From Halichondria panicea (lineage: Eukaryota; Porifera; Demospongiae; Suberitida; Halichondriidae): a stretch of 64,000 nt of DNA. This document shows positions 27,656 through 64,000 of the stretch, in pieces; position 1 is the first letter of the stretch, and every line of letters starts with the position of its first letter. The DNA is taken from assembly GCF_963675165.1 (NCBI RefSeq), contig NC_087377.1, positions 12,138,632 to 12,202,631 of the forward strand. Direction: 5' to 3'. The notes beneath the pieces are model-generated. The model was not told the DNA's origin. It was given only the letters and a program-made list of their open reading frames with translations, and searched no databases. The position numbers and the translations under genes are program-made.

Positions 27656-29846
27656 ATGCAAGTAAAAGCAGTTACTATTATTCAGTTGTTTGCTGTTGCT
27701 GCAGGTAGGACTTAGGTATAATTGTGTGTTCATGCACTAGAACCTTGACTTTAGCTAAAATTATTTTTGTATGCAGCCACACTGACATCCACCTCCACTG
27801 TGTCCTGTCCTGATGACACTGTCACCTTCACCTGCACTCTGCCTGGTAGTGTCATACGATGGACGGTCACTTCTCCACAACTACAAGTATTCACCATAAC
27901 TTTAGACACCAGCAACATTGATGTCACACGAGGTAATCCAGCATTCCGTGGTGTTCTCACTGACTCCAGTGGAGGAATTAATGCTCACTGCCACTCTCAC
28001 CTCACTGTCTGAGGCCTCCATTGTAGAGGGTACTATGGTGGAGTGCTTGCATGGGAGCGAGCTCACGAGAGGGTCCTCATACCATCACTATGGCTGGTGA
28101 GTTGACTGCTCTTTGTTTTGTAACATTATATAAAAGTGTGGAACAAGTGATTAATATACCCACATGCAGATCCACCCTCACGTCCACTCAATTCAAGAGT
28201 ATCCTCCACTCTAAACCAACTCAGCTCCTCTATTATCACTCTGGACTAGGACCCTCCCTCCTCTACTGGTGGTGTGTCAGTCAGCTATGTCGTCACCATC
28301 TCCCCAACACCTCTCTCCGGGTCACCAGTCACCGTGGAGACCACCTCAGCACAGATATAACTGTTCCTACAACACTCCCTACAATATGACCATCAGAGCT
28401 GTCAACTGTGTTGGAATGAGTCAAGAGAGTTTAATTGAGGATATGAGTAAGCCATTTCATGGTCATATACAACAATCAGGTATACTTTTAACGCAGTTGT
28501 GTGTCCCACACCGTCTACTGCTGCTGGTGTGACCATCACCAACACACCTCTTGTCACTATTGGTGGATCCATGTTCACCTTCACTTGTAGTAGAGATAGT
28601 GAAGTGAGAACCTCAACCTGTGGCAGTAGCGGGTGGTCTCCTAACCCTGGGACCTTTGACTGCAGCAGTCCGATTACAGGTATCATATAGGGGCAATTAA
28701 CTCTCTAAAAGGAATCATATCCCCAAGTCAGCTGTGGTTCTCCTGCTGCACCGTCTAGAGGCAGTTTGGACATCAATGGTGGGACACCACCCTTCTCACT
28801 GGGTTCACAGGTAATCTATCGCTGTGATGAGGGACTGTTCCCTCCTGATGTGAGAACCAGTACATGCACTGATGTGGGGGATAGGGGAGAGTGGGTGGAC
28901 ACTCCTGGGAGCTTGGTGTGCATAGAGAGGCCAGGTGAAATGTAGTTGGGCCAAGCCAACTTCTAGGCAGGCCGGTAAAAAAATTCTGAAGAGTGGGAGT
29001 TTTTAGACTCTTAAATTGTTAGGCTTCCTAAACCACACTGAGTTTTATGGTAACCTTATGGAGTGGGTGGTTGTGGGTGTTTTTCTAGCAAAAAGTGACT
29101 CGCTTACATTCGTGAAGCGTGTAATTAAGTTGGCTTGGCCTTGTTCAGAGGATTTTTGATTTCCTTCATTCTATAATTTCTGTGAATTGTATTAGCTTAC
29201 GTACACCGCTTTCATTCCACACTTTCTTAACTATTCAATGGCAGGTTATTGGATGCTCGTGTTGAGCTGATTGAGATACAAACATGTACTCATAGTCATT
29301 ATCTGACCGTCCCTATAGTCAACTGCTCTCTTCCTCTTGAGCCCTGCAACGGTGGTATAGTGGACTATGAGAGGTGGTTGAACGAGATAGTGTCAGAGGG
29401 AACAGTGCTGACTTACCAGTGTGACAGTAGACTCTCACTGACTGGACCCAACAACGTCACTTGCACTAATGCTGGAGTCTGGAGCACAGAGCCTGAGGCA
29501 ATCATTTGTGTACTTATAACTGAAGGTGATGAGCTTTGTAATTGTTTGCTATCTACTATATATCCCATCTCACAGTTTCTACTGTCGCTCCTTTGTTCTC
29601 CACTTCTGCAACTGTCGCTATCAGTGTGGTCATCACTTTCATTGTCACTCTAGTCATTGGATTCCTCACTGGGCTCCTAGTGATGCATGTTTTCTCTCGT
29701 AAGAAGACGGTGTACTTCCCGGCAACTGAAGGACAAGCTAACGTAGGACCCACTATACACTAGCTGGTCCTGTTTATGAAGAGGTGTCACCCACAGAGGA
29801 GATTGAACTGAACACTAACCAGGCGTATGGACCAGTAGGACTGTGA
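27656..29846 (+). pseudogene. Pseudogene D: Ig-FN3-CCP3-TM receptor
   Basis: Exons: leader 27656-27704 (MQVKAVTIIQLFAVAA), Ig 27777-28096, FN3 28170-28446, CCP1 28497-28679, CCP2 about 28719-28934, CCP3 29319-29525, TM/tail 29576-29846. Breaks: two 4-base insertions in the Ig exon (27978-27981 and near 28050), an in-frame TAG in FN3 where relatives have the codon for W (LD*DPPSS, near 28248), a lost AG before CCP2 (the intron end reads ATCAT), and a 2-base insertion in the tail that creates a stop at 29761. CCP1, CCP3 and the TM segment stay open. The intron before CCP3 carries a TIR element. It lies next to gene E, head-to-head. Confidence 0.85.
28946..29142. mobile_element. Small TIR element in pseudogene D intron
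   Basis: The ends GGCCAAGCCAACTT and AAGTTGGCTTGGCC are inverted copies about 195 bp apart. The same intron in genes B and C lacks this sequence, so it is an insertion. The target duplication is not clear. Confidence 0.7.
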
Positions 29847-32766: not shown

Positions 32767-32915
32767 CCTCCAATCTAGTTCGTAGCTGGTCAAGACCAAT
32801 TGCTCCTCTCCGAGATGATCAGTCAGCTCCTTCCATGTTGAGCAACTCTTCATCCATTGGTAAATCACTCCCATTAAGCATCCAGCATTGTCATTGCAAC
32901 ACGTATCTTCAATCT
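32767..32915 (-). pseudogene. Death-domain C-terminal exon relic 2
   Basis: The minus strand reads IEDTCCNDNAGCLMGVIYQW, then MKSCSTWKELTDHLGEEQL, and ends at a GTGAG donor. It is collinear with the second Death exon of gene F (IEDSCGVNHGGCLTEVIDQW). The frame is open, so it could still be a usable exon, but no matching first half was found nearby. Confidence 0.55.
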
Positions 32916-36650: not shown

Positions 36651-37160
36651 GTGTGTGGTGGGTGGTTGAAGCTGTAATGTGTAAACATACTGATTATATC
36701 TGCTATTAATACTGAACACATGATACCGGACTTTAGGGGATATGGTTACACAGGCACAACTATCACATGACCACCCACTCACCTTAGTGCCCAGCTCTGC
36801 AGTACAGATGCAGGCTGCCTCACTGCATGGTTGGACGCCTGGCTCTGGGAGATGTAGAAGCCAACCTGGTTTGGATTACTGAGCTCTGTATATATTTTTA
36901 TATGTGTGCTACTGAAGACCCCCAAAAGTAGTATTTTCCTACACAAACGTGGCTCTGGGATATGTATGACTATATACCTGCACAGCATCACAACAATTTA
37001 GTTATTATAGATTCGGCTAGCTCGTCTAATGTTTTGTTCTAAACACAGAAACTCACCACTTTGTGGATGTGCTGCTCTACCAGCTGCACTCCCCTGGTCT
37101 GTGTGACCGCCCTCCAGGTCTTGAGAGTAGATCCTCACACCCTCAGCCACATAGTACCTG
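35547..37160 (-). pseudogene. HEAT-like gene fragment, copy 3
   Basis: Minus-strand blocks in order: about 37157-37060 (VTQTRGVQLVEQHIHKV), about 36867-36784 (FYISQSQASNHAV, then AELGTK), about 36585-36556 (CLKPYVRRL), about 36272-36149 (DRVSSLLPLCAETL, then HYPQHINLLETLLK) and about 35660-35547 (similar to NALVQSAGVDCL of copy 2 but shifted by a missing base). This is the most complete set and gives the exon order of the parent gene. The first block has a frameshift compared with copy 1. The mixture suggests partial duplicates. Confidence 0.42.
36591..36656. repeat. (GT)n microsatellite
   Basis: A run of about 30 TG units with one C interruption. ORFs on both strands here are pure repeat and not genes. 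Confidence 0.95.
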
Positions 37161-39983: not shown

Positions 39984-40112
39984 ACTCTACTGTGGTGCTT
40001 ACGTAGATGTACGTACATGTACGTTTGAATGAAAGTTTTTATACAGTCCCACTTACTCATTACCACTAGATCTACCACATGCCACTATCTATTAATGTAC
40101 TGATGCATACTC

Positions 40113-40290
40113 ACCAGCCTCAAGATTTCCTTTGCAAGTTGTTCCTCCAGATCTTACTGAGATAATTATGATCTGCCAGCTCCCTCCATGTTGGTCGTCC
40201 AGAACAACTCTTAGGCAAACCAGCCGTTACAATGTATCTTTCAGGGTCTGGGTCCGCAAGACTACTCTTCCATCATCCATTAGTCAACCA
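40113..40290 (-). pseudogene. Death-domain C-terminal exon relic 3
   Basis: The minus strand shows WRELADH and, after a frame change, EEQLAKEILRL before a GTGAG donor: the second Death exon pattern of gene F with an indel. Upstream residues are also shifted. Confidence 0.5.
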
Positions 40291-40299
40291 CTTCAGTCA

Positions 40300-42250
40300 A
40301 ACAGCAGCTGAGACAAAACAGGGGTAAAGACCCACTACACAATAAACATGAAGTGAGACAAGTGATAAGGGTCTGATAAAGGGTCATGCAATCTACAACC
40401 ATTATTTGATGGACAGATAAAGGGTCATACAATCTACAACCGTGGTACGTAATTCAACGACTGGTTGGGTAGCAGTGACTGTGTAGTTGTCTCTCCTCTG
40501 GGAGGAACTCCCTCGTAACCACGAAGGCTAACATACACAATATAACGTATCATGCTTGACATGATACAAGGAACCTCTCGATTCCAGGTCTTTTGTATTG
40601 GTGTATTGCAACTTGGAATCGAGGCTAGAGAACCTCTAGACTAATTAACTGAGACTGTGATAAAGAGGTGGATGCATGGTTGAAGCGTTTGGTTGTACAT
40701 AACTTCTTACTGCATGGACGTTTAATTTAATCCCTTAAGGCTTTGCGATCGTGCAAATATATGAGTTTCCAGTGCTAAAACAATTTGGATTTAAAAAAAA
40801 CAAGTCTTGTCTCTCACAGATGCTCGCTTTATTTGCTTATAATATCTATGAAAAGGATTGGCTATGGACACAATAATTAGATTTTAAGAAAGCTTTGTCC
40901 TAAAGCTATGCAGTGGAACATGAGAATTACACAGGCTCTTTGTGGTATACACCGTATACTGGTATAGGTCTTACCTATATCGAACAGATATCATTTTTTG
41001 TATCAATTACTGATGGTACCAAGTCTGCACTTCTTCCTTTTCGTTCAGGTGTACCACAGAGGAGCATTCTTGGACGATACCAAGCTTATTAAATCAGTTT
41101 CAAGTGTAAATGATGGCCTGCTAATGCAATCAGATATTGCATCATTTTTTGTTGTAGTCACAGTATCTTGCACCATGTTATAATTATTGTATCACTTAAA
41201 TTAGTTTCATTTTGTACACTTGCTGTGAAGTTCATAAATTATTGATGGTATACCGGTATGTACGACACTTTATGCCAAAATAATTCATCTTGTGTATGTT
41301 CACGAGTGAATGTACATACTTGATCAGACACTACGGTATTGACTTCGAAGCTGATTAGGTAAAGAGTGTTAACTAAACATATACATAGTAAGCATCTTAC
41401 AATCTGGACAAGGGTGTCCACATTTAAACATCACACATAATTACATTGCTAAACTAGTGATTCTTACCACAAGCCAATCGAATAGGTTAATAGCCATGAG
41501 CAGGTAATGTGTTCAAAGGCCCAATGCATTATTGCCCTATGGTATGGTAAAGTCGGAGTGTGTAGCATTCTTTATTCTTTTCAACTTTTCCTGTTCCTCC
41601 CTATAGTTTCGTTATCATAGTCTCTCGTTTGTGTTTTGTTTTGCTTTCTCTAGTGCCTTAAGTTTCCCATAAAGGGCACTATGACAGGAGCAACTACCCT
41701 GCTTGTCCTGCTCTACTCAATTCATTTTGCTAAATGACCCTTTTGGGATTGGTTATAGACACACCACCTTAAGTAGGGGAAATATTTAGTGCAAGATATC
41801 TGCGGAGCTGACCTACTCTTGAATTACAATCATGCATAATCAAGTTTCAACCAGTGTTGGTTATAAATGTGAAAAATTCAAGGAGGAAAAAGGAGGGAAC
41901 TAAATGAATATCTATAGAGTTACTCCCCCCTCGTGGTCAAATGAATACACTTAAAGTGTTGACAGTTGAGACTACATGTATTAAAAACCACCAAATGTTA
42001 TTATATAGACACTGAAAGATAAACTAAGCCATCTACCACAAACAGACAATCATCTTCCTATAATAACTCAACATTTCAATGCACTAGCACCAGGTACACA
42101 ATGTATGTGTGTGAACGTACTTATATTATATATACCTACACAGCTGCTGGCATCACATGAATGTATAACCGACCAGGAAAGTAAACGGGAATTCATAGCC
42201 TAACATGGTCATACTAATAAACTGCTTTCATAACAGGAAAAACCAACATG
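40300..42250. other. Intergenic, no gene seen
   Basis: It contains a small inverted repeat around CGATTCCAGG/CTTGGAATCGAGG (40570-40630). No exon-like conserved segment was recognised. Confidence 0.4.
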
Positions 42251-44647: not shown

Positions 44648-45352
44648 CTAGTGCTTGGTGTAGTGCTTAGAAGGGAGTGGAGGTGCCGGGGGTTCGTTGT
44701 TAGGGGCTGGTTTAGGGGGACGGGCTGGAACTATCTCAATAGTTCTGCATGGGAAAAGTGATCAAGATAAGAACCGTTAACACTACTAAATGATACAAGG
44801 GTAAAGTTATGATGACAGAACCACAGTTTATAATTATTTGTATAGCTCAAACATGGGAGACACGTACATGTATTTGATGCATCTGTGGACCCATTATCCC
44901 AACCCAGAGGAGGTACGACACGCGTGCCTCGATGAGGCTAATTACCTCTGCAATAACGTTGAGCGTGGGCGGATAATCAAGGCGTGGTTACGCCCACGTT
45001 CAACGTTATTGCAGAGGTAATTAGCCTAATCGAGGCACGCGTGTCGTACCTCCTCTGATCCCAACCTATACCAACCTATATGGACACCTCACCCTTTCGT
45101 TGGATTAAGGTTTACCTATAAAAACTTCGGTTGCTGACCACCATACAATTGCATTGGTAGTTATACATGGGAGCATTTTGTGGCACTCAACTTACGGTTT
45201 AGGAGGACGTGAGGGAGGCAGTGCCTTTGGTAATCCGGGGCCGTCATCTGTCATGGTGGGGGATCGAGAGGGGAGGGGAGGGGGAGGGGCTCGGTCGTAC
45301 TTGTACACGGTACTTGGTACTGCCTTCATGTTCAACTCCACTGGGAGGCGAC
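44648..45352 (-). other. Gene F proline-rich C-terminus
   Basis: The last two exons (45352-45196 and 44744-44648) join in phase 2. They contain DRAPPPPLPSRSP and PARPPKPAP, then PPAPPLPSKHY. PPLPSR and PPLPSK fit the class II SH3-ligand pattern PxxPx(R/K), so binding of SH3 proteins is plausible. Tyrosines also occur (VYKYD). The intron between them hosts the MITE at 44905-45057. Confidence 0.75.
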
Positions 45353-46480
45353 CTGTGAGTGAGTGTGACGAGTGGGGTAGTGTGGGTCATAATCATACTG
45401 TAGGGTGTATTTTGCTCCAGCAATTAAACTACTTGGATCGAGTTAACAGCTGTTAAACATACAAAGAGTCTCATTTTGGTAAACAGGGAAGCATAATTAT
45501 TATGTTATATACCACAGTTCTCAATGAATGGAGAGAAGAGCAAGAATGTGGCTTGTTGTAAAGTGAAGCAGTGTTGTGTCTAGTAGTTGGGTAGTTAGGA
45601 CACAACACAATACTGCCCACACAATCAAGGGAAGCCAGGTGTGGGCCCTTGGGATAAGTGGATACGTGTACGTGTGTACATACATGATGTACATGTACAT
45701 GATAATGACCTTTTTATGATGGCAGTTTAGTCGAGCTAAGGTAATTTGAGTACAATATTGTGACTGTCAATTAGAAAGGCTATTAGGGTTGCTTAAACAT
45801 AATATAATTATAGGTATAGCAATAACAACAATAATATTATGCTTTTCCAATAACGTACAGTCGATTGTGAGTATTTTTTTATACATGTATACGGACGGAC
45901 ACAATGACAGGCCACTATTACAGTTACCAGCTTATAGACTACCAACAGGGCCACAATTCAAGCAACACACATGAAACCACTACTCACCAGTTTCGTAGAT
46001 ATTTATGAGCTCCTTTGCTAGCTGCTCCTCTCCAATATTATGGAGATGACCAGCCAGCTCCCTCCAGGTTGGTCGCCCAGAACAGCCCCTCATCCATTGG
46101 TCGATCACCTCCGTTAGACAGCCACCATGGTTGACTCCACACGAATCCTCAATCTAAAATGAGATATTTGAGTGAGTAACGGGTTACACCAACAATAGAT
46201 GGCACTTCTATTTGTACGATTAAGGTGTGACCAAACAATGGGTTAATTATAGACTTTTAAGTTATCAACTTTCATCATTTACACATTCCTTCACACCACG
46301 TACAGAACAATGATTGACCCTTGATAGATTTAAGATTAGTAAGTACCTGTTCAATCATTGTTTTAGGCAGCCTCATAGTCTCAGCCAGCTCCCTCCATTT
46401 GTGGTCCATTGACCTGATCTGGACCAAGGCCTGGTCAATGTCCAGGAGCTTGTCCACATCAGGCAGGGCTGGGGCTGAGG

Positions 46481-46549
<69 letters not shown>

Positions 46550-47850
46550 GAGAGAGAGAACTGACCTTGCTAATGCAAAGAGGCCACCTAAAACATATTT
46601 CAGTAGGCTATGCTTCAGGGCAGCACTACAATTAGGCCACCTGTCACTGGAGGAAGCAATGAATGCTATACACTTTCTAACACCCAAGCCATGAATACCA
46701 TTGAGGGGAGTCTATACAGCAGCTATATCTTGCTGTACCAACTCATGATCAGTGTGTGAATCCACATAACAAGGTTAGCTCTCAATTGCAATATCCACAA
46801 AAAAGCGTTTTGCGTTGAGCGTTCCTTATAAGGTTATCTGTGGTCAACCATAAAGCTGTATCTTAGTCAACAATGCACTACATGTATTCTACAAACAGTT
46901 GATGGATCAACTTGAAGATTCTCAGCAACACTTTGATAAGACAGTCCAAGCAGCTCTGTCTGATGCACTATCTCCATCTTATATCCCAAATAATGCCTTG
47001 GTCAGCTTTTTTCACAAGAAAAATCCATATTTTGCTTCCTAATCAGACATGGCATTTCACCACAATGTGTTTATGAGACCACAATGTGTAAAGATTAGAT
47101 ATCCATATAAGGAACGCTCTACAATTTCAAAGATTCTGCAAAACCCTGTACCCACTGCCTTAAAAGGTAAGGGTAAAACCAGAAGCTTACGTAAACTTGA
47201 CAGCTTATCAAAGAACCACCACTGGTTCCTAATCAGCTGGTCAGGTGATGGGATTCTGCCATGATTAAGAAAGAGTGTGCTGTAATGTTGTCAACAACAC
47301 TATATGCAACTGAATCGGAAAAAATGGGGATCTCGCTAGATATCTCTAACTACCAGGAACGGACGCACTATGGTACATTCTAACATATCTGGTACACCTA
47401 TCAAAATCATTGACAAAGCCTCAAAGCCTATCACACAAACAGGCTCACCTGTTGGGCTGGCTGGGAGGGTGGCTGCTTTGGCTTGCTTCCTACTGGTGGC
47501 AGCAACATCCACAGTGGCGTAGGTGACCTGGTGTTGGTCCACTGTGGCAGTCGTGTTTTTGCCTTTCTTGTGGGACTGGCTGGAGCTAAGGGCAGCATAC
47601 ACCACTGGTTCCACTGTATCCTGGGGTGTCGGGAAACAAACAGAGTCAAGAATAGCTTTCAGTTACAGATCTGTACAATGTGACGCAGGATATTGTGGTA
47701 AAGTATTGTATTGGTGTATATGCATCACAGGACACATCAACATGCACAAACAGTTTCATTATGAACCAAAGATGATTTGTTTAACTTGAAGTATATAGTT
47801 ACAATGCCAACCAAAACAGACACCCATTAGTCACAATACTCTCACTAATG

Positions 47851-47890
<40 letters not shown>

Positions 47891-50348
47891 ACATTGCCGA
47901 GCTGTCCATAGCCGGGTAGTCTCTGAGTCTGCAGGAAAATGGAATGCAATGAACAATTGTGTCAAGATGAAATTACCTGTCCAGTGTTCATTGTACTGTA
48001 GCCTTCTGAGTTGATTCCTATCTTCTGTAAGGAGGAAAAATCAAAAATCAATGTTTTGTTCAATAGCTCTAGGTAGTGTTACGTACATTGTCTGAGTTGA
48101 GGACCACCTCATCGTAAGTCAGTGCCCCAGCATCCTGTATATAAATACATAGAAAGTGAGTGAACTGCAAATTTTTTATAATATGCCATAAACCAATTTG
48201 ACTAAATGTGAGGTACCATGGTCTACATGTATATAGTGTGAACTGACTGAGCTCTTCTCACCGGGCTACGATTAACTCTGCTGTAACCCTCAGAGTCACC
48301 CTCAGAGTCAGGAGGTTGGGCCTGACAGAGAGATAGATCAAGAGAAGGGGGGGGGGGGGGGGAGATTATTTGAGGCTTTTACTTTCCAGCATCATAATTA
48401 TGTACAACAGCAAAAAAGAATATAACTCACTTTCTTTGCATTCCTTGGGCCATCGTGCCTCAGCTCGCTGTAGTCTCCCTGAGCAGTGACACACAGGTAC
48501 ACACTACACACCGAGTTTATGATCTTACCTGAAGTCCCGACATCTCCACCACATCTTCTCTGAACTCGTCTGATTTCTGCCTCCTCAGTAAGAACAGGGC
48601 AACCACCACAATGACTATGAGACACACTACCACCAATATACCTACAACAACACCACCTACAATAGGTCCAATGCCAGTACCTGGGGGTGATATATGGACA
48701 GAGCAATGTAAAACTAAACAAGTTGTATATAAACATCACCTTCAGTCAGTACACACGTTATTTCCTCAGGCTCAATGCTCCACACTCCAGCATTAGTGCA
48801 AGTGATGGTGTTGGGTTCAGTCAGTGAGAGTCCATTGTTACACTGGTAAGTCAGCACTGTTCCTTCCAACACTGTCTCATTCAACATCTCATAGTTGAAT
48901 ACAATACCATTGACATTTGTTATTGTAATAGTATCGTTGAATGGTACAACAGGTACAGTGCAGTTGACTGTGAATGGCAGATACATATAATACCAATTTA
49001 AACATACATTCTCAAACATTACCTGGCCTCTCCCTGCACACCAAGCTCCCAGGATTCTCCACCCACTCTCCCCTACCCCCCACATCAGTGCATGTACTGG
49101 TCCTCACATCAGGGGGGAACAGTCCCTCGTCACAGCGGTAGATTACCTGTGAGCCTATTAAGAAGGGTGGTGTCCCACCATTGACGTCCACATTACCTCT
49201 GGATGGTGTGGCAGGAGAGCCACAGGTAACTTGGGGATATAATGAGGTCAACATTACACAGTTAATCCACTACGTAGGATATACCTGTTCTGCAGTCATA
49301 GGTCCCAGGATCAGGAGACCACCCACTACTGCCACAGGTTGAGGTTCTCACTTCATTGTCTCCACTACAAGTGAAGGAGAGCATGGATCCACCAATAGTG
49401 ACAGGAGGTGTGTTGGTGATGGTCACCCCAGCAGCAGTAAACGGTGTGGGGCACACAACTGTATAAAGAGAAGTAATACGTGCATGTGTTGTAGGCAAGA
49501 CATAATTATCGTACTTAGATCCACAATTGAAGTTTCATTCATTCCAGCACAGTTAACAGCTCTGATGGTCATATTGTAAGGAGTGTTGTAAGAGACGGTG
49601 ATCTGTCCAGAGGTGGTCCCCACGGTGACTGGTGACTTGGAGAGAGGTGTTAGGGAGATGGTGAGGACATAACTGACAGACACACCACCAGTAGAGGAGG
49701 GGGAGTCCCAGTCCAGAGTGATATTAGAGGAGCTGGGTTGATTTAGAGTGAAAGATACTCTCGGGTTGAGTGGACGTGAGGGTGGATCTGCATGTGGGTG
49801 TATCAAGTTGATCAAGGAATTTATTTATGAAAAGAACTCACCAGCCACAGTGATGGTGAGAGGACCTTCTTGTGAGCTCTCTCCATCACACTCCACCATA
49901 GTACCCTCCACAATGGAGGCCTCAGACAGTGAGGTGAGAGTGGCAGTGAGGGGTCCACTGGAGTCAGTGAGAACACCACGAAATGCTGGATCACCTCCTG
50001 TCTCATTAATATTGGTGTTGGGAATCAAATTGATTCTGAACAACTCTATCCGGCCTTGTGGAGCAGCCATTGCAGCAAACACCGTCCATCGTATGAGACT
50101 ACCAGGCAGAGTGCAGGTGAAGGTGACAGTGTCATCAGGACAAGCCACAGTGGATGGAGATGTTGTCAGTGAGGCTGCAAAAATTTACCTAGATCTAGAA
50201 TCCTGTACCAGGCTATCTCAATCTCCACAACCATTTAGCTCTAATACTTACCTTTCGCTTGCCATGAACAAGCTAGTAATATTATTAGTGTGACCGTAGC
50301 AAACACTAGACGGATACGTAGTAGACACCATATTCTTGAAGCTCCCAT
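44648..50348 (-). CDS. Gene F: Ig-FN3-CCP3 receptor with tyrosine/ITIM tail and Death domain
   Basis: Seventeen minus-strand exons: 50348-50252, 50174-49842, 49787-49515, 49458-49285, 49229-49023, 48967-48740, 48680-48529, 48478-48431, 48321-48262, 48134-48087, 48024-47977, 47928-47893 (or 3 nt longer), 47620-47449, 46480-46347, 46153-45988, 45352-45196, 44744-44648. The total is 2430 nt, about 809 residues plus TAG; every junction phase agrees. Order: long basic leader (MGASRIWCLLRIRL, then a hydrophobic run), Ig (33-143), FN3 (144-234), three CCP (235-437), glycine/valine-rich TM (about 441-469), tyrosine exons (489-568), ITIM exon (569-625), Death domain (about 630-725), proline-rich end (726-809). 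Plausible role: a surface receptor combining phosphotyrosine and Death-fold signalling. CCP3 lacks the second cysteine seen in genes B and C. No transcript evidence is available. Confidence 0.87.
44905..45057. mobile_element. Near-perfect MITE in the last intron of gene F
   Basis: The arms begin CAGAGGAGGTACGACACGCG and end with its exact complement; they extend about 67 bp each with a short centre. ATCCCAACC lies on both sides (44896-44904 and 45058-45066), a 9-bp target duplication. The near identity of the arms means a recent insertion. Confidence 0.93.
45988..46480 (-). other. Gene F Death-domain exons
   Basis: Exon 46480-46347 encodes PDVDKLLDIDQALVQI, then WRELAETMRLPKTMIEQ; exon 46153-45988 encodes IEDSC, CLTEVIDQWMRGC, TWRELAGHL and EEQLAKELI. 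Together they give the six-helix Death pattern with both conserved tryptophans. The split after the third helix is the same as in the ankyrin-Death gene at 764-1130. The acceptor of the first exon is preceded directly by a (CA)n run. Confidence 0.82.
46483..46549. repeat. (GT)n microsatellite at the Death exon acceptor
   Basis: About 33 TG units on the plus strand, i.e. (CA)n ending in CAG on the coding strand, immediately before the exon at 46480. It occupies the place of a normal polypyrimidine tract. Confidence 0.95.
47449..48478 (-). other. Gene F tyrosine-motif and ITIM exons
   Basis: Exon by exon: 48478-48431 GDYSELRH; 48321-48262 EGYSRV; 48134-48087 LTYDEVVL; 48024-47977 EGYSTM; 47928-47893 PGYGQL; 47620-47449 VVYAAL and VTYATV. 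LTYDEV, VVYAAL and VTYATV fit the ITIM consensus (S/I/V/L)xYxx(I/V/L); the others are looser YxxΦ or YxxM motifs. The first five exons are 48, 60, 48, 48 and 36-39 nt, each starting and ending in phase 0. Confidence 0.8.
47853..47890. repeat. (CA)n microsatellite after a gene F donor
   Basis: Nineteen or so CA units. On the coding strand the exon ends GGCAATGTGGTGTGTGTG, so the donor site merges with the repeat and its exact position is ambiguous (36- or 39-nt exon). Confidence 0.9.
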
Positions 50349-51433: not shown

Positions 51434-52944
51434 ATGACTTTCGTAGCAAGAGTAAGTTATTTAGATGATAGTCTAGGGAGAGATCTATCTTAATTTCCTA
51501 CCGATTGTTTTCCCAGGTGAAGGTGTCCTATGTATTATTTTGTATAAACCTTCAGTACATTAATTATGATCAAATCTATATATTTTCTATTGAATAGGTA
51601 GTGTTGTTGCTTGCTCTTGCAATTCAAGCATCAGTTTTATATGGTAAGTAGCTACAGTGATTTTTGTCCCATCAAGAGATCGATTCTGATTTTGTTTTTA
51701 CATTTAGGTCAGGTGGTAGACATTGCTTCAGATTTAGACACAGCCGGTCGTAACTTTTCCTGTACTGGCGAAGTTGTCACATACACTTGCAGTGGTCAAG
51801 GAAACACTTTAACTATAAATTGTCCACCATTATTCACTTCGAATGTATTCCTCAGCAATGACCCTGTCCCTGATGCTGTTTCCACTGTTCCGAATGTTAT
51901 TCTTACCCTAACAAACAGAGTAATAAACGGGTCGCGTACATTTTATGCTGTAAACCTGCAAATCACAGTGTTGAATGATGCACGAATCGATGTTTCATGC
52001 TCTACTAACGCTACAAACAATGTTGCAATACCACTGATCCATGAGTGTAAGTTGTTCAGCTGTTCATAATTAAAAATTATAATTATATAAAACTTTAATT
52101 CATACAGCAAGTACAATCGAACCACCATCCATTGTGACATTTTCTGGAGACATGACACTATCATGGACCCCACCTTTGAACCCTCAGTTTGACATTGATT
52201 ATTATATTGTGAGAATTTACGTGGATGGAATTTTGAACACAACTAGGAGCTCTCGTGATAATAGTCTGGATATAGATGTCCCGGGAAATATCACTGCTAC
52301 TGTTAGTACTGTTAGCACTTGCGACAAAGTTAGTGACTCACAACCGTCTGATGGATTTATCATCATTGGAGAAAGCACCAATATACCAATACTAGTCCCT
52401 GATAATCAAGGTTTGTTCGAACTTTTAGTGCATGTGCTCACAAACATATATAGGAACAAAATTGTGCCGTATTATAGTTACGACACTTCCTTGTAAAATA
52501 ATACTTTTTCTGTAGGATTGATTGGTGGCATTGTGGTTCTCGCAATATTGTGTGCTGTCTTCCTCATCGCTTTTGTAACACTGGCATTGTTGTTCGCAAT
52601 GTTAAGGAAAACAGTAAGCATTCAATTTATGTATAATTATACTCTGCAGGAGCCAATGCATGTGGTTGAATGTGAGCCAAAAGGTTGTATTACCTTGTTT
52701 TTACACTTCCCTTGCAGATATCAAAGTTGAAACAAAATCAACGACAGGTGCGTTTAGTAACATTTATGTAAAGAGCTGTTGAATCTCCAAATAATACATT
52801 TTGGTTTTAGAAAAGTTTATTTGGGGATGGCACTGTCCCTCATTATTTACGTTATGCTCTGTAAAGTGTTAAGACTGATTTAGTAATGTCTAAGATTGGA
52901 ATGATTTTGCGTTATTTTTCTTTTTCTCACTGTAGGATTCTTGA
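51434..52944 (+). CDS. Gene H: short Ig-FN3 transmembrane receptor
   Basis: Exons: 51434-51451, 51598-51643, 51708-52046, 52108-52410, 52516-52613, 52718-52747, 52936-52944. The total is 843 nt, 280 residues plus stop. The leader is split over two exons (MTFVAR, then VVLLLALAIQASVLYG). The Ig domain (about 22-134) has FSCTGEVVTYTC and IDVSCSTN; FN3 (135-235) has LSWTPPLNPQFDIDYYIVRI; TM about 237-264 (GLIGGIVVLAILCAVFLIAF), followed by RK. It lacks CCP modules, and the tail is very short (KLKQNQRQDS) with no tyrosine. If the last junction were different, the alternative frame would read DIYQDSVVYVHSK; I could not find a junction that supports it. It may act as a decoy or partner receptor. Confidence 0.75.
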
Positions 52945-54065: not shown

Positions 54066-54295
54066 CACAGGAAAGGGATTGGAAACGACCAGGCCGCCCT
54101 GTGTCAAAGCATAGATTGAAAAGGAAGGGGATTGGAAACGAACAGGCCTGGGATCGAGGCTAGTTCTAATGTAGCACTCGTTCTATGGTCCAGGAATTTC
54201 TTGGACCGGTAATTGCCCGCACAAGGTGTATTACCCATGAATATCATTATGATGCTACAAAACGCTGACTCAGCTAGATAAGTTGCACATTAGAA
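54066..54295. repeat. Overlapping transposon fragments
   Basis: Two copies of the 7-bp-family end core GGGATTGGAAACGA (54075, 54128), then GGCCTGGGATCGAGGCTA and a core with AATTTCTTGGACCGGTAATT matching the nested MITE at 14973-15209. Confidence 0.7.
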
Positions 54296-55036
54296 TTAGA
54301 AGCAGTAGCACTGGTAGCAGTAGTAGCACTGGTAGCAGCAGTAGTACTGGTAGCAGCAGTAGCACTGGTAGCGCTGGTAGCAGCAGTAGCACTGGTAGCA
54401 GTAGTAGCACTGGTAGCACTGGTAGCACTGGTAGCAGCAGTAGCACTGGTAGCAGCAGTAGCACTGGTAGCAGTAGTAGCGCTGGTAGCAGCAGTAGCAG
54501 TAGTAGCACTGGTAGCAGCAGTAGCACTGGTAGCAGCAGTAGCACTGGTAGCAGCAGTAGCACTGGTAGCAGCAGTAGCACTGGTATATCCATTTTTTAC
54601 GCTCCTGTTCCAACTGCCACTATTTTACATCAAGTGTTAACAGTACATTACAATATAGCACTGGTAGCAGCAGTAGCAGTAGCATTGGTAGCACTGGTAG
54701 CGCTGGTAGCAGCAGTAGCACTGGTAGCACTGGTAGCAGCAGTAGCACTGGTAGCAGCAGTAGCGCTGGTAGCAGCAGTGGCACTGGTAGCAGCAGTAGC
54801 ACTGGTAGCAGCAGTATAGCGCTGGTAGCAGTAGTAGCAGCAGTAGCACTGGTAGCACTGGTAGCGCTGGTAGCAGCAGTAGCACTGGTAGCACTGGTAG
54901 CGCTGGTAGCACTGGTAGCACTGGTAGCAGCAGTATAGCGCTGGTAGCAGTAGTATCACTGGTAGCACTGGTAGCACTGGTAGCAGCAGTAGCACTGGTA
55001 GCACTGGTAGCGCTGGTAGCAGCAGTAGCACTGGGG
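54296..55036. repeat. Minisatellite array, left (AGCACTGGT-type)
   Basis: Tandem 9-bp and 18-bp units made of AGCACTGGT and AGCAGCAGT, in two blocks (54296-54590 and 54655-55036) separated by a 65-bp unique spacer. The ORFs here (Gly-Ser-Thr, Leu-Pro-Val or Cys-Tyr runs) are products of the repeat in every frame, so I do not call genes. Confidence 0.95.
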
Positions 55037-55194
55037 GGAAATATCTTTCATTGAAAAAATTATATATAATGTTACAAAAATATTGCAATGAAAGTAGTAG
55101 TCTATCTATCAATAGATAAAGAAATGTACCTAGGACTCATACACTTAAAACATACAAAACCATAACAAAATGGTTTTGCAATGTATGTTCAAGC

Positions 55195-55390
55195 CAAACT
55201 CCACTCCCGAGCCAGAGAATCCAAACTCCACTACCGAGCGGCCAGAGAACCCAAACTCCACTCCCGAGCCAGATAACTCGAACTCCACTCTTGAGCCAGA
55301 GAAGAACCCAAACTCCACTCCCGAGCCAGAGAACCCGAACTCCACTCCAGAGCTACAGAATAACCCGAACTCCAGAACCCAAACTCCACT
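55195..55390 (+). repeat. 24-27 bp tandem repeat between the arrays
   Basis: About seven copies of a unit like CCAAACTCCACTCCCGAGCC, then AGAGAA, encoding (N)PNSTPEPE. The frame is kept over most units despite length variation in multiples of three, up to a changed end. It may be a fragment of a low-complexity secreted protein, but no leader or splice context was found. Confidence 0.75.
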
Positions 55391-55785
55391 CATCCTCATG
55401 AGCCGCCACCGGAGAGTGCTAAGCAACGGATTCCCCGGAAACGATATTATACGAGATCAAAAGCCGAGGCTCCCCCAATTTCGAAGAGGCTGCTGTGCAA
55501 GGGTGACTCTTCATTCTCACAGTAACTATTGTGGTTACTCTATATAATTATGACTTGGACTTCGCATTGCTATACTGATTATTATGTGATTGTTTTGCTA
55601 TGTTTTTTTCATGATCATCACGCCTTATAGTTTGTCAGTTGTCACTGCATGTAAATTTTACGCGGTGTCTGCGGCCTACTGTGTAGAGAGAGTGCCCATG
55701 CATGTTACATAAATGTGAATAATAGGCTAAGAAATGTTGCTGATAATACCATTGTGTATATAGTAGATAAAAGAAAACTCTTTCA

Positions 55786-56478
55786 CTGCTGCTATACCAG
55801 CGCTATACCAGCGCTATACCAGCGCTATACCAGTAGTGCTACTGTTGCTATACTGCTGCTACTAGTGCTACCAGTGCATGCTGCTACCAGCGCTACCAGT
55901 ACGTGCTACTGGTGCTACTGCTACTACTAGTGGTACCAGTGCTACTGCTGCTACCAGCGTTATACCAGTGCTACCAGTGCTACTACTGCTACCAGTGCTA
56001 CTGCTGCTACCAGTGCTCCTACTGCTACCAGCGCTACCAGTGATACTACTGCTACCAATGCTACTGTTGCTACCAGCGCTACCAGTGCTACTACTGCTAT
56101 CAGCGCTACCAGAGCTACCAGTGCTACTGCTGCTACCAGCGCTACCAGTGCTACTACTGCTACCAGTGCTACCAGTGCTACTATTGCTACCAGTGCTACT
56201 ACTGCTACCAATGCTACTGCTGCTACCAGTGCTACCAGTGCTACTGCTGCTACCAGCGCTACCATTGCTACCAGTGCTACTAGTGCTACTACTGCTACCT
56301 ATGCTACTGCTGCTACCAGTGCTACTGCTGCTACCAGCGCTACCAGTGATACTACTGCTACCAATGCTACTGCTGCTACTGCTGCTACCAGTGCTACCAG
56401 CGCTACCAGTGCTACTACTGCTACCAGTGCTACTGCTGCTACCAGTGCTACCAGTGCTACTATAGTGCTACTGCTACT
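55786..56478. repeat. Minisatellite array, right (reverse orientation)
   Basis: Units ACCAGTGCT and ACTGCTGCT, the reverse complement of the left array, over about 690 bp. Together the two arrays form a giant inverted repeat with a roughly 750-bp centre. Confidence 0.95.
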
Positions 56479-56488
56479 ACTAGTTACC

Positions 56489-58206
56489 TAGCCTCGATTC
56501 CAGGCCGATTAAAATACGGCCTGGTACCTATTGCAGGGTAATGCGCATGCGTTAGTTTATTCACCAAAATCTGGGGAATCCCCTTTTGCTTCCCTCAACT
56601 ATTTTCTATCTTTGTAAACATCAGCTTAGCTCTCTATTGCGTTGTTCCAGAAGGCTTTCACACTAGTCTGAAGCCAGGAGAGGCTCTCATCTACCTCTAT
56701 GACGGTTGTATGGTCAGGATGTCTTACCATGGATCTGTACAGGCTATGGGAAGTGTAGAGTTAGACTGGAAACCACGCCCCTTTCTTTAGGGAAAGAGAC
56801 TGGCCAGGTGACTATCAACGACTCGTCTTCATTGCGTACTGAATTTTGCGGAAGTGGTTCAGGGAAAAGGGTGTGGTCACCAGTGTTGCGGTTTAGTATA
56901 CTTTGGCTAGATCGAGCTAGATCTACTGTACTCTAGCAAGCTAGCTAGCTAGCTCAGCCACCTACCAAACTTAATTTCAATCACAAGTCAACTGCTGCAA
57001 AACTATGTCCAAGTCTGGAGCTAGCTGTCACCTGGATGTACCTAGTTCTTGTCCTGTCTGTGGCAATGATACCGCTGTAATAGAAACTCAAATGTTGCTG
57101 GCAATAGGGCAAAGCAAAGGGACTTTCCATAAACCAGTTGGCAGAGAGACAAATATATCTACTGACTTCTGTCTGTTATTTTTTGCAGTGGCCTTGTAGC
57201 TATCCAGGTTATAGCAACTTTAGAATTGCTTCATTGGAGAAGTACTGATAGACAACTTATATCCAAACAGCTAGCTAAGTAGACATAACATTTATACTGC
57301 AACTGTACAGCTAAAAATATTAATACTCACATAATAATAAAATTTATGCAATATTGTGGTTTAGATATCTCCCACGTATTCATGCACACACTACATTCCA
57401 AGCATTCCGTTGGGACGAGTCGTTGATAGTCACCTGGCCAGTCTCTTTCCCTAAAGAAAGGGGCGTGGTTTCCAGTCTAGTGTAGAGTACAAGGGGGTAT
57501 TATGAGACCTCTAAATGTTTCTGACCCCCCTGTCTTGCAGTAATCTTGAGGGAGCTAAATAGCCTGTTCACTAACTACTATGGTCAATAGGCTTGCATGC
57601 AAGCAAAAAAAAAATTAGTGACAGTGCTTTGTTCGCAGCTAATGCTAGCATTTAGTGTTCAAAGTGATTCGGGTATTATGAGACAGGGGGGGGTATTATG
57701 AGACACCATTGCAATTAATTAATTTTAACGCTAATTGGCTGTTATAACATAATGGGGAACTTTCTGATATATAATATAGTGATTATTCTTCCTATAAAAA
57801 CAGTTACTCCTGTTTTAACAGATACCTAGTGAATTTTACTACAAAACATTTGGCACCCACTTAAATTTGGTCACTTAAAATGTTTTTTCCAATTAAACTG
57901 CTACTCGCGAAGACAACCCGGCTATAGGACAGTCCTAGACGTAGATGAGAGCATCTTTTGTCTTAAAACTAGTGTTCAAGCCTTCTAGACCAACGCAATA
58001 GACGGCATAAGCCACAGCTTCACAGAACTCAGTCATAGAGATAAAGTATTACGGAACATATTGGACTAATTTCTGGTATAATTTACTAAGGTTTTACGTT
58101 CGTGGTACGATTACCCATATTCTGGGTAATTTGAAGCGCATGCGCACTATCACCCCTGCAATAGGTACCAGGCGGCCGTATTTTAATCGGCCTTGAATCG
58201 AGGCTA
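56489..58206. mobile_element. Complete 1.7-kb transposon with TAGCCTCGATTC ends
   Basis: Begins TAGCCTCGATTCCAGGCCG and ends with TTGAATCGAGGCTA; the arms carry GCCTGGTACCTATTGCAGG and its complement. CTAGTTACC lies on both sides (56480-56488 and 58207-58215), a 9-bp duplication. It contains a 66-bp perfect internal inverted repeat (56762-56827 and 57414-57479). No transposase was recognised; ORFs inside are short. Long arms and a 9-bp duplication suggest a Mutator-like class, by inference. Confidence 0.88.
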
Positions 58207-60032: not shown

Positions 60033-63001
60033 ATGATGAGAGCAATGCAACTGTTTACAGCAAATACCCTGCAGTTGTTTGCTTTTACTGCAGGTAATTA
60101 TAAGAACTATAGCTACACATTATAGACGTCTGTCTTCACTAGCCTAAGTTTACATGTTTTGCAGCCTCACTGACAACATCTCCATCCACTGTGGCTTGTC
60201 CTGATGACACTGTCACCTTCACCTGCACTCTGCCTGGTAGTCTCATACGATGGACGGTGTTTGCTGCAATGGCTGCTCCACAAGGCCGGATAGAGTTGTT
60301 CAGAATCAATTTGATTCCCAACACCAATATTAATGAGACAGGAGGTGATCCAGCATTTCGTGGTGTTCTCACTGACTCCAGTGGACCCCTCACTGCCACT
60401 CTCACCTCACTGTCTGAGGCCTCCATTGTGGAGGGTACTATGGTGGAGTGTGATGGAGAGAGCTCACAAGAAGGTCCTCTCACCATCACTGTGCATGTGG
60501 CTGGTAGGTTCTTTTCATAAATAAATTTCTTGATCAACTTGATACACCCACATGCAGATCCACCCTCACGTCCACTCAACCCGAGAGTATCTTTCACTCT
60601 AAATCAACCCAGCTCCTCTAATATCACTCTGGACTGGGACTCCCCCTCCTCTACTGGTGGTGTGTCTGTCAGTTATGTCCTCACCATCTCCCCAACACCT
60701 CTCTCTGGGTCACCAGTAACCATGGAGACCACCTCTGCACAGATCACCGTTTTCTTTAACACACCCTACAATGTGATCATCAGAGCTGTCAACTGTGCTG
60801 GAATGAGCGACACCTCAATATTTACTGTACCATCCATAGGTCAGTGCAGGGGCGTAGCCAGGGGGGGGGGGCTCATGGTGCTCAAGCACCCCCTTTCTAT
60901 CTGAGATTGTACAAAAAGTGTACCTGATTGTCTAGCTGAGCACACCCTTCTCTTCCAGATCTTGCTGCAGTTAACTAGCTAGTAGGCAAGCAAAACAAAT
61001 TGGTCTTTAAACTGTGAGCTATTCTAGCTTAGATCTATAGACTAGTAGTCTGTTCTCTTTCATAGCTAAATAGGCTTCTCTAATGCACCTATCAATGTCA
61101 GTCCCCACTACCCCCCCTGCGGGGCATAGTGGGGACATAGTGGGGTTTTTTGGGGTTTTGATTCAGCAAGTAACCCCGAGGTGCGGGATAGGGTGGGGAA
61201 TTTGATTTCCTCAATATACAAACTTATAGCAGTAATATCCGGAAAAGTATAGCACATGCACACGTGTAGTCAAATCCCGGGGTTGTTAAGTGGGGGTATG
61301 GGAGGAGAAGTGGGGATTTGATTTCAACCAGGCCCCCTGGGGTGGGGCAATTGATATTGATGTAATCAAATCCCCACTAAACCCCGACATAGCCCGCATG
61401 GGGGGTAGTGGGGACTGGAATTGATAGGTGCATAAGCAAATAGAAGATTGGGCCACACCCAACTATTAATTACGACAGCATTAATTAGAGGTGTGGCTTC
61501 CGGTCAACCAAATATCGGCACTGCGTGGCTAAAAATCGGCCGCTTTGCGCCCTCTTCTTTCTATGATAGCACCCCCTTCCTCAAAATCCTGGCTACGCCC
61601 CTGCAGTATTATTAACCCGAGGTGCGCTGCGGTGCCACGGGTTATAGTAGTCGGTCATGCAGTCAGTCTGTCTGTCTGTCTGTCTGTCTGTTTGAGTCTA
61701 CTCACCTAGATGCAATAACACTGTGTTTGTACTATATTATGGGATAGCCTCAACGCAACAAGGTACATAGTTTGGCAGATTTTGATTTAAAGCTTCGTTG
61801 TCGAATAAAAGCTAGCAAAAGCTATAAGAAGCTAATAAGCTCGAACCTGTGCATGTTGGCCTAGATGTACACGCGGCTTTGCCTCTATAGACTCGCTAAT
61901 CCTGAAATTAACACTGAGGGTTTGCACTTCAGTGCTCTAGTTTACAATTATAAGCACTAAATTAGCGTCTTAGTTCATGTATACTCTTTCTCTACTCAGT
62001 TTCCTGTCCCTCCTCCCTCTCTGCTGCTAGTGGTGTGGTCATTGTCCAGATACCCAGTGTACCGACTGTGGGCTCCACACTGACCTTCACTTGTTTTGAA
62101 AGTAATCAAATGATACCCTCTACCTGTGGCAGTGATGGACAGTGGAGTCCTAACCCTGAGGATTTCATGTGCCCAACAATAGGTGAGTATAATTATAGAT
62201 GTGCAGTTTGCTTGCATTCAAGTTATGCATGGTATTTGACTGTATTGTTAAATACCAATAATTATAGTGACATGTGATGTTCCTGCGGCCCCCTCTATGG
62301 GTAGTGTGAACACTAATGGTCAGTCTTACACAGAGGGGTCACAGGTAACTTATCAGTGCAATGATGGACTGTTCCCCATGTGTGTTCTGACTGCCACTTG
62401 CACAAGAGATGGACAAAATGGAGTGTGGGAGCCTGATCCTAGTGTTGTGGTGTGCAGGACATCTCCAGGTAATGTAATTCTTCTCTAAACAAGATGTTCA
62501 TAGAGCATTCACTCCATGCGTTAAGCTTCATTGCGCAGCGGCAAAACGGATACTTTATAATATTATGGGTGAATCTATAAAGCAACAATTAGAAAACAGT
62601 GTTTTTGTCGCATTCGAAGATCGCCTACTATAATTATGAACTAGCCTATTATTTTTCAATTATTGTCTCATTAGCAGCCAGTCCAGTTCGCTCACACAGC
62701 TCATTTTTATGTCCACACACACACCAATCACTTTACCCCTGCTCCGCACGCACGGGGTAATTTATAATTAACTATGTGTATGCATGCACTGTCACAGTTA
62801 ACTGCTTTCTACCTGAGGAGCCCTCAAACAGAACTATAGTAAACTATGAAAGGTTGAATGTAACAGTGTTGGAGGGAACAGTGCTGACTTACCAGTGTGA
62901 CAATGGACTCTCACTGACTGGACCCAACACCATCACTTGCACTAATGCTGGAGTCTGGAGCACTGAGCCTGAGGCAATCAAGTGTGTGTCACCAACTGAA
63001 G
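60033..63001 (+). CDS. Gene G: Ig-FN3-CCP3 receptor, 3' end beyond window
   Basis: Exons: 60033-60093, 60165-60503, 60558-60839, 62000-62182, 62268-62468, 62798-63001; all phase 1, frame open throughout (423 residues so far). Leader MMRAMQLFTANTLQLFAFTA; Ig (21-133, same residues as gene F apart from a 2-residue insertion near its end); FN3 (134-227); CCP1 (228-288, FTCFESNQM, CGSDGQWSPNP); CCP2 (289-355, YQCNDGLFP); CCP3 (356-423, NETV-like NVTV, LTYQCDNGLSLTG). The TM/tail exon was not found before the window end, so the tail type is unknown. The Ig donor is GTAGG, weaker than the GTGAG of relatives. The FN3-CCP1 intron holds a 757-bp transposon. Confidence 0.8.
60847..61603. mobile_element. 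TIR element with CAGGGGCGTAG ends in gene G intron
   Basis: Starts CAGGGGCGTAGCCAGG, ends CCTGGCTACGCCCCTG; flanks CAGTG and CAGTA (60842-60846 and 61604-61608), close to a 5-bp duplication. It has a nested element inside. Confidence 0.83.
61084..61432. mobile_element. Nested TIR element with TGCACCTATCAA ends
   Basis: TGCACCTATCAATGTCAGTC at the left and GACTGGAATTGATAGGTGCA at the right are imperfect inverted copies, flanked by TAA on both sides. The TAA duplication fits PIF/Harbinger-type elements (inference). The same end (TTGATAGGTGCA) appears alone at 51247. Confidence 0.75.
61613..61999. repeat. Dispersed repeat with CTGT tetranucleotide run
   Basis: From CCGAGGTGCGCTGCGG, with a (GTCT)n run at 61665-61692, to GCACTTCAGTGCTCTAG (61926). 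Its layout resembles the CCTCGAGGCGTA repeat (end, short tandem run, body). It ends just before the CCP1 exon of gene G. Confidence 0.55.
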
Positions 63002-64000
63002 GTGAGAGTATAATTAACCTGAGGCACGTAGGCAACCACAGGAGTTATGGTAATCCCTTGGTTTGTTTGTGTGTGTATTTTAAGTATGCTCACCTGCATA
63101 TGGCTGCCATAGCGCCTTCGTTTACAGCATGGATATGTAATTATAATAGCCTCAACAAGTTATAATTATTTAAGCGGTAGATTTTGTAGCTTTGGATTAA
63201 AAGCAAGCAAAAAAAAGCTAAGAGAAGCTTATAACCTTAGGTACAATAATGTACGTGGCTTTAATTTTGGGTACGCCATTATACACATGCACGATATACA
63301 TCCATGTGGAGCCTTAGTTTTTCATGAGAAGAATTAATGGTCCGGGACTCCCAGAGCATGCCAGATGCCCCCATTTTCAGGGTGTGGCTTAGCAGGTGAT
63401 ATTTCACCTGCTTAAAATGTTCTAATATGTCCCACTTGGAGCATGTACATTTAGCACCTATATAAATTACCCCCTCACCCCCTCAACATTTGCACTATAT
63501 ACTTAATTAAAACTATTACTTTCATCGCGTCTACTATCCTTGGAGGTGGTTCCAAAGCTACATAACATAAAGCTACTAATAGCTAGCTTTTATACACCAT
63601 AATTATCATGATGAATTTTATTAGTCACAATTAATACTAGAGCACTGAAGTGCAAACCCTCGGCTGGTGACATGATTATAAAGAAACCAGAAGAGTGATA
63701 TAATGCAATGCATGTAGTGATGTATGACTGGCACAGCAACTCAGGAGCAATGAAACTAAACCAGACTAGAGGCATGCAGTGGTAATGAGGCATGCCCAGT
63801 GGACTAGGATCACAGCAAAGATGCCTGGAGTCTCAGAGAAGTATGATATGACTCCTGGGATCCTGGAGTCAGCTAACAGAGCAACAAACAAGTCACAATT
63901 CTAGCTTTCTATTGTAGTGACCCTTTTCCACTGTATTTGGTACGGGATCACTTCAGCTGTAAATACGGAGGATACCTCGAATAAAGGCCGCGTGTAGTTA
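63002..64000. other. Window end, no exon seen
   Basis: This should contain, or lead to, the transmembrane exon of gene G, but I found neither a TM-type hydrophobic frame with an AG acceptor nor the conserved tail sequence. A GCACTGAAGTGCAAACCCTC repeat (63643) resembles 61917-61935 reversed. Confidence 0.4.

Follow-up and report, generated by a model that had tools for sequence, protein, structure and literature searches.

Can a single animal receptor carry both immunoreceptor tyrosine-based inhibitory motifs (ITIMs) and a Death domain and, if so, to what kind of receptor system does it belong? The question is raised by a stretch of 64,000 nucleotides, hereafter the window, which occupies positions 12,138,632-12,202,631 of one contig (NC_087377.1, here C1) of Halichondria panicea, a demosponge of the order Suberitida. 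On the minus strand of the window, between positions 50348 and 44648, lies a gene whose predicted product has an ectodomain of Ig-like, fibronectin type III (FN3) and Sushi domains, a transmembrane helix, a long tail with ITIMs, a Death domain and a proline-rich end. Related genes of the same cluster end in a short tail. Our preferred reading, held with moderate confidence, is that this gene represents the long-tailed side of a system of paired receptors in the sponge, in which the inhibitory-type arm bears a Death domain.

Gene model and domains of the predicted receptor

Seventeen exons were joined into one continuous frame of 809 codons, which opens at ATG 50348 and closes at TAG 44650-44648. 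The splice borders of all 17 exons are GT/AG (the outer ends are the start and the stop), and the phases agree throughout. A protein search recovered an NCBI prediction for H. panicea, LOC135347988 (810 residues, here P0001), with 100% identity and 100% query coverage; the sole discrepancy is one added valine, the last residue of exon 12, which ends at 47890 rather than 47893. The model of this predicted protein was thus arrived at twice, by our own exon joining and by the separate NCBI prediction. The initial annotation had proposed a single gene, probably of a sponge, with 17 exons in consistent phases, about 809 codons from leader to TAG, and a receptor ectodomain, ITIM tail, Death domain and SH3-ligand-like end in one chain. 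The one-frame model, which uses the proposed junctions 47449/46480 and 45988/45352, agrees with this architecture, as does the fused protein predicted by NCBI, and the species is indeed a sponge. The exons are as follows.

50252-50348, minus strand: exon 1, start codon and signal peptide, the same in P0001
49842-50174, minus strand: exon 2, Ig-like domain (Ig fold weakly supported), 2 of 333 bases different from a neighbouring short-tailed gene
49515-49787, minus strand: exon 3, fibronectin type III domain, found family-wide by Pfam
49285-49458, minus strand: exon 4, Sushi-like domain 1, amino acid identity 100% to short-tailed P0004
49023-49229, minus strand: exon 5, Sushi-like domain 2, amino acid identity 100% to short-tailed P0004
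48740-48967, minus strand: exon 6, Sushi domain 3, the best Pfam stretch
48529-48680, minus strand: exon 7, transmembrane helix and juxtamembrane segment (top 21-residue window, Kyte-Doolittle value 3.69)
48431-48478, minus strand: exon 8, 16 codons, phase 0-0, YSEL
48262-48321, minus strand: exon 9, 20 codons, phase 0-0, YSRV
48087-48134, minus strand: exon 10, 16 codons, phase 0-0, canonical ITIM LTYDEV
47977-48024, minus strand: exon 11, 16 codons, phase 0-0, YSTM
47890-47928, minus strand: exon 12, 13 codons, phase 0-0, YGQL (end as in the NCBI protein; 47893 in our joining)
47449-47620, minus strand: exon 13, canonical ITIMs VVYAAL (Y577) and VTYATV (Y603), 26 residues apart (pN/pS 0.15, 7 loci)
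46347-46480, minus strand: exon 14, first half of the Death domain (pN/pS 0.22, 10 loci)
45988-46153, minus strand: exon 15, second half of the Death domain (pN/pS 0.23, 10 loci)
45196-45352, minus strand: exon 16, proline-rich SH3-ligand-like segment (pN/pS 0.22, 8 loci)
44648-44744, minus strand: exon 17, proline-rich C-terminus and stop codon TAG

The Sushi domain of P0001 is found by Pfam at E 1.8e-11, and at E<=0.01 Pfam detects Sushi in 25, FN3 in 21 and Death in 8 of the 26 family members (P0001-P0025 and P0027). FN3 in P0001 itself is weak (2.2e-3, under the Pfam cut-off). The Death domain scores E 9.3e-4 and 19.7 bits on the whole of P0001, under the Pfam cut-off of 22.6, and 2.8e-5 and 24.6 bits, above that cut-off, on a 120-residue segment; eight of the ten long-tailed proteins have it at E<=0.01. 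A search of PDB with the single Death segment gave FADD only at 0.77, after two unrelated chains; once eight Death domains of the family were combined into a profile, FADD was the top match, at 5.5e-5. For the Ig-like exon there was no Pfam match, and the family profile gave sub-significant matches only, antibody light chains foremost (best E 0.011); the name Ig-like is retained solely for the conserved C..W..C pattern. Profile HMMs thus uphold the Sushi, FN3 and Death domains of the initial annotation across the family, and its Ig domain only weakly.

Canonical ITIMs have the consensus [S/I/V/L/T]xYxx[I/V/L] and stand in the cytoplasmic tail of a transmembrane protein. The tail of P0001 contains seven YxxPhi motifs, three of which (LTYDEV, VVYAAL and VTYATV) meet this consensus. 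When the same tail was shuffled 20,000 times, the means were 0.59 ITIMs and 2.15 YxxPhi motifs, and the observed numbers were reached in 339 and 35 shuffles, respectively. Exons 8-12 are short, in phase 0 at both ends, and carry one tyrosine motif apiece, so that exon skipping could set the number of motifs; the predicted proteins P0021 and P0026 are without the exon 8-12 motifs. The ITIM pair of exon 13, with its spacing of 26 residues, stands directly before the Death domain. All ten long-tailed predicted proteins retain Y577 and Y603, and both sites keep the strict consensus in nine of them, the first site of the divergent P0027 being PVYSEV. Each long protein has 2-4 ITIMs (n=10), and one of the ten matches the Pfam model of the SHP2-interacting adaptor SIT (6.9e-4). 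At the C-terminus of P0001 there are four PxxPx[K/R] motifs; the mean in shuffled sequence is 1.0, and 215 of 20,000 shuffles reach four. In intron 13, parts of 47150-47448 are approximately 86-91% identical among several long-tailed loci, and the reading frame runs from exon 13 into this intron, which would allow a short isoform with ITIMs and without the Death domain.

Pooled pairwise ratios of nonsynonymous to synonymous differences (pN/pS), taken over the window and 37 loci from among those most like the receptor gene and biased toward intact copies by the exclusion of matches with stop codons or less than 90% coverage, were 0.15 for exon 13 (7 sequences), 0.22 and 0.23 for the Death exons (10 each), 0.22 for exon 16 (8) and 0.41-0.60 for the ectodomain exons (12-21 sequences). 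The ITIM and Death exons are coding and under purifying selection, and the ectodomain is less constrained than the tail.

A clustered gene family with two kinds of tail

At least 52 ectodomain loci, grouped from 137 matches of the full-length query that all fell on C1, lie between 11.31 and 13.90 Mb (about 2.6 Mb), 45 on the plus and 7 on the minus strand; the number is a lower bound, as 56 of 1,234 candidates were scored, and it may be inflated by assembly duplicates, as some locus pairs score identically. Such pairs are 0.7-1.4 Mb apart (e.g. 11694448/12412008 and 11798276/13225034) and would be recent or assembly duplicates. With the Death query, 15 loci in the same stretch match both Death exons, some with internal stop codons. 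Ten Death loci were examined, and in seven of them exon 13 precedes exons 14-15 on the expected strand and in the expected order.

Among the predicted proteins, the long ITIM-Death tail is found in ten (nine of the 26 proteins from the first search, and P0027), so that ITIMs followed by a Death domain, in P0026 by half of one, occur in nine proteins besides P0001. The short tail, present in 17 predicted proteins, has 49-68 residues and mostly ends GPVYEEVSPKEEIELNTNQAYGPLGL or near it. Strict ITIMs are found in 10 of 10 long proteins but in 0 of 17 short ones, and all 17 short proteins have YEEV. The short-tail tyrosines are arranged as YEEV-x13-YGPL/V, of which YGPL/V is usual and not universal. 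P0027 (LOC135351151) has two Death domains and a single PxxPx[K/R] motif. Related single-exon Death domains in tandem were found on the minus strand at C1:14428613-14429690 and 14506614-14507741; P0027, with its two Death domains, Sushi and ITIM-like motifs, probably comes from one of these places.

Ectodomain identities cross the division between the tails. Among the compared proteins, all of which were retrieved through similarity to P0001, the Ig-like domain of P0001 is 100% identical to that of short-tailed P0011, its FN3 domain 91% identical to a short protein, and its Sushi 1 and 2 are 100% identical to those of P0004, whereas the best long relative gives 37% (Ig), 64% (FN3), 52% (Sushi 1) and 83% (Sushi 2). 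Similarly, P0002 compared with short P0020 gives 97, 98, 92 and 91% for the same four domains, and 37, 64, 72 and 83% against long proteins. P0003, whose model is without the Ig exon and much of FN3, has 85 and 88% identity to short P0023 in Sushi 1 and 2, against 72 and 60% to long proteins.

At the DNA level, the receptor gene is 95.3% identical over 663 bases, one intron included, to the neighbouring plus-strand gene of P0011, and 94.6% identical over 1,177 bases, introns included, to locus L044 (11.606 Mb). Its 3' end is 99.3% identical over 305 bases to another long locus, L011. The Ig exon differs at only 2 of 333 bases from that of the P0011 gene, 10 kb away and on the opposite strand. 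Both of these ectodomain sources, the P0011 gene and L044, end in the short tail: the transmembrane segment and YEEV tail of P0011 lie about 1.8-2.0 kb past the end of the window, and beyond L044 comes the tail of P0004 at 11.608 Mb; no long-tail match was found in the 6 kb (P0011) and 5 kb (P0004) examined. Since its ectodomain matches short loci and its 3' end matches long locus L011, the receptor gene is a mosaic. Vertebrate paired receptors likewise behave as mosaics. Near-identical ectodomains on two tail classes within one cluster are evident for the subfamily of P0001-P0003, and not clearly so for a second subfamily, for which a gene at 25177-26650 is the one that suggests a short-tailed partner. 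For P0027, a close ectodomain partner was found in neither tail class. The other genes of the family in the window are given below.

12721-15550, plus strand: short-tailed paralogue
15755-17777, plus strand: short-tailed paralogue
22037-23934, plus strand: short-tailed paralogue
25177-26650, minus strand: short-tailed gene of the second ectodomain subfamily (P0019/P0006 type), with a YEEM...YGPV tail
27656-29843, plus strand: short-tailed paralogue
60034-63022, plus strand: short-tailed paralogue P0011, with signal exon, Ig, FN3 and Sushi 1-3; its tail is outside the window

Fragments of Death exons at 32776-32913 and 40081-40309 (minus strand) are probably relics of more long-tailed genes. 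Segments at 3189-3287 and 36803-36868 (minus strand) match the unusual non-Death C-terminus of P0026 and would be a repeat or a piece of another gene. At 51602-52496 (plus strand) there is an open stretch with Ig-like and FN3-like patterns by eye, divergent from the family and directed away from the receptor gene, and 54250-56490 contains long low-complexity tracts, open in several frames, in which SSTG-type codons are abundant.

Proposed signalling and alternative readings

If the paired-receptor reading is correct, long and short genes of the cluster would exchange ectodomain exons (Ig-like, FN3 and three Sushi), and because these exons are common to both classes, both probably recognise the same kind of ligand. 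Ligand binding would gather long and short receptors together. The short tail, with YEEV and usually YGPL/V, probably docks Src- and Syk-type kinases, which would in turn phosphorylate the ITIMs of the long receptor; exon 13, once phosphorylated, probably recruits an SHP-2-like phosphatase that would damp the kinase signal. A further output would come from the Death domain, through homotypic contacts with other long receptors or with a FADD-like adaptor, and SH3 proteins may bind to the proline-rich end. We infer ligand sharing, the sign of the signal, the docking of kinase and phosphatase and the Death-domain output from anatomy, and the labels 'inhibitory' and 'Death signalling' are taken from motif and domain only. 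The ITIM-Death fusion would wire phosphotyrosine inhibition directly to Death-fold signalling within one chain.

Candidate partners are encoded in the genome. At C3:8402500-8408499 there are two SH2 exons and protein tyrosine phosphatase (PTP) exons, the tandem SH2 being nearest to SHP-2 (E 1.2e-76); the genome thus encodes an SHP-2-like gene, the type of phosphatase looked for with ITIM receptors. One SH2 exon is nearest to Syk (2.9e-35) and has a second SH2 4 kb upstream, and one locus has SH2, ankyrin-like repeats (by eye), SH2 and kinase exons. There are 21 matches to the death effector domain (DED) in the genome, and on C7 one of them lies approximately 450 bases from a partial match to Death on the same strand. 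The SHP-2-like, Syk-like and DED/Death products may be functional partners of the receptors. On C4, dozens of tandem exon matches to the protein tyrosine phosphatase model PF00102 between about 0.04 and 2.6 Mb mark a large expansion.

Several observations weigh against the paired-receptor reading. The consensus of the immunoreceptor tyrosine-based activation motif (ITAM) is YxxL/I-x(6-12)-YxxL/I, and the short tail fails as an ITAM, with a spacer of 13 and V at the first +3 position. The short class also lacks, in its predicted transmembrane windows, a charged residue through which it could pair with an adaptor, and the 7.5 kb examined around the Syk-like SH2 showed no kinase motif. Sushi 3 barely discriminates the tail classes, its identities to long and short proteins being 80 and 79% for P0001, 81 and 84% for P0002, and 81 and 90% for P0003. 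The five long proteins of the second subfamily that were compared (P0006, P0007, P0019, P0021 and P0024) are closest to each other, their best short matches reaching 31-46% within a set obtained entirely through similarity to P0001. At three of the ten Death loci, where the sequence covered ahead of exon 14 spans about 1.2 kb, exon 13 was not found in it, and P0026 has the first Death half only, without the second half or the proline-rich end. Strong diversifying selection on the ectodomain was considered and is unsupported: pervasive positive selection was not seen, with dN>dS in 1 of 65 Ig pairs.

A wider interpretation, possible if doubtful, is that the 2.6-Mb cluster is a sponge histocompatibility or allorecognition complex of paired activating and inhibitory receptors, in which a Death domain on the inhibitory arm would let a single receptor either restrain or trigger killing in the contact zone.

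Unequal crossing-over and gene conversion could also diversify clustered receptors without any opposed signalling, in which case shared ectodomains would be a by-product and the tails would serve adhesion or pathogen sensing. At least 52 loci packed into 2.6 Mb with several near-identical copies, the Death-exon fragments inside the window, and the ectodomain pN/pS of 0.41-0.60 in the absence of pervasive positive selection all fit this account, but the two discrete tails, with their complete division of ITIMs between ten long and 17 short proteins, and the pN/pS of 0.15 in the ITIM exon speak against it, and we judge it unlikely. The YxxPhi motifs might instead be endocytic sites or PTB/SH2 adaptor sites of a scavenger or adhesion receptor that is tied to the cytoskeleton by its proline-rich end. 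YxxPhi fits AP-2 sorting signals too, and the four PxxPx[K/R] motifs would suit such a receptor; however, three sites meet the stricter ITIM consensus, and two of these are conserved and 26 residues apart; we consider this role quite unlikely.

A Death or dependence receptor like Fas or UNC5 would use the Death domain as its main output, with tyrosines that only tune it, for example where a docked kinase or phosphatase keeps the adaptor from binding. Fas has an ectodomain of TNFR type, and the UNC5 netrin receptors carry TSP-1 and ZU5 domains; no TNFR cysteine-rich, TSP-1 or ZU5 domain was found in P0001 by Pfam up to E 10, a range in which most matches above 0.1 are removed by filters. A set of up to seven YxxPhi motifs, five of which each have a small exon to themselves, also goes beyond simple tuning. 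FADD as the best match of the Death profile favours this view, as does the ITAM/ITIM-like motif at Tyr291 within the Fas Death domain, described in PMC4572867 (citing Daigle 2002), by which Fas offers an earlier example of a Death receptor under tyrosine control; we consider the view quite unlikely. Finally, it is highly improbable that gene prediction fused a receptor gene that stops after exon 13 with a distinct Death-proline gene, and this was rejected as the main account: the open reading frame does continue from exon 13 to 47336 in the 968-base intron 13, where read-through could give a short form, and exon 13 was not found near three Death loci, but ten predicted proteins combine ITIMs with half a Death domain or more on the same chain, exon 13 is upstream of exons 14-15 at seven of ten loci, and exon 14 starts in phase 1, within a split codon.

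Comparison with known receptor systems

In protein searches, each of which scored the best approximately 8,000 candidates, no homologues were found outside H. panicea, other sponges included, nor did relatives of Hydractinia Alr or Botryllus FcoR surface, no direct comparison with these having been made. No paper on an ITIM-Death receptor, or on the present Halichondria family, was found in the open-licence literature as judged by titles and abstract openings, and to that extent the earlier statement that no described family has this exact order stands. The predicted anatomy supports a receptor of the paired ITIM kind whose ITIM arm, in this sponge, also carries a Death domain.

The mechanisms of invertebrate allorecognition are described as a mystery, and the proteins proposed for it in sponges, cnidarians and ascidians as not conserved, in the portion of PMC12065747 consulted. 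From the same portion, the Botryllus fester co-receptors (FcoR, fuhc locus) have the order V-Ig, Sushi and two C2-Ig and pair with fester genes, and ITIM-pathway genes are present. The sponge family resembles FcoR in its Ig-like and Sushi ectodomain, in tails with ITIM or hemITAM/core tyrosine motifs and in clustering; the domain order differs, and a Death domain is unmentioned for FcoR in those passages (PMC12065747). The allorecognition complex of Hydractinia contains at least 41 clustered loci of immunoglobulin superfamily type, with pseudogenes (PMC11067881, in part), and ITAM/ITIM motifs are reported on candidate Alr genes (PMC11067881 and PMC12065747, both in part). Clustered loci and ITIM-type motifs are thus common to Alr and the sponge family; Sushi or Death domains are unmentioned for Alr in the sections of these papers seen.

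Fas is similar in being a transmembrane receptor with a Death domain and an ITAM/ITIM-like tyrosine motif, but its motif is inside the Death domain, whereas in the sponge a string of motifs precedes it (PMC4572867, in part). Sponge Ig-TIR and Ig-CARD genes likewise join Ig to an innate signalling domain; they have TIR or CARD in place of ITIM-Death, and a paired class is undescribed in the excerpts of PMC6208332 at hand. In H. panicea itself, Sushi, Ig and DEATH domains are among the genes that respond to lipopolysaccharide, according to the sections seen of an immune transcriptome study (PMC8242945), from the main text of which the terms ITIM and allorecognition are absent.

Clustered, shuffling ITIM/YEEV receptors, together with an SHP-2-like phosphatase and a Syk-like SH2, would constitute a testable candidate for cell-surface recognition in sponges. 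The closest parallels are the vertebrate paired immunoreceptors KIR, LILR and SIRP, which have clustered genes, near-identical ectodomains on two tails, tandem ITIMs and exon exchange, all of which have counterparts in the sponge cluster. The sponge receptors differ in that the short class has tail tyrosines of its own and a predicted transmembrane window free of charged residues, in that the ectodomain is Ig-FN3-Sushi, and in that a Death domain and proline-rich end are attached to the ITIM tail. If the paired-receptor reading is true, the logic of these vertebrate systems would be present in a sponge and physically joined there to Death-fold signalling.

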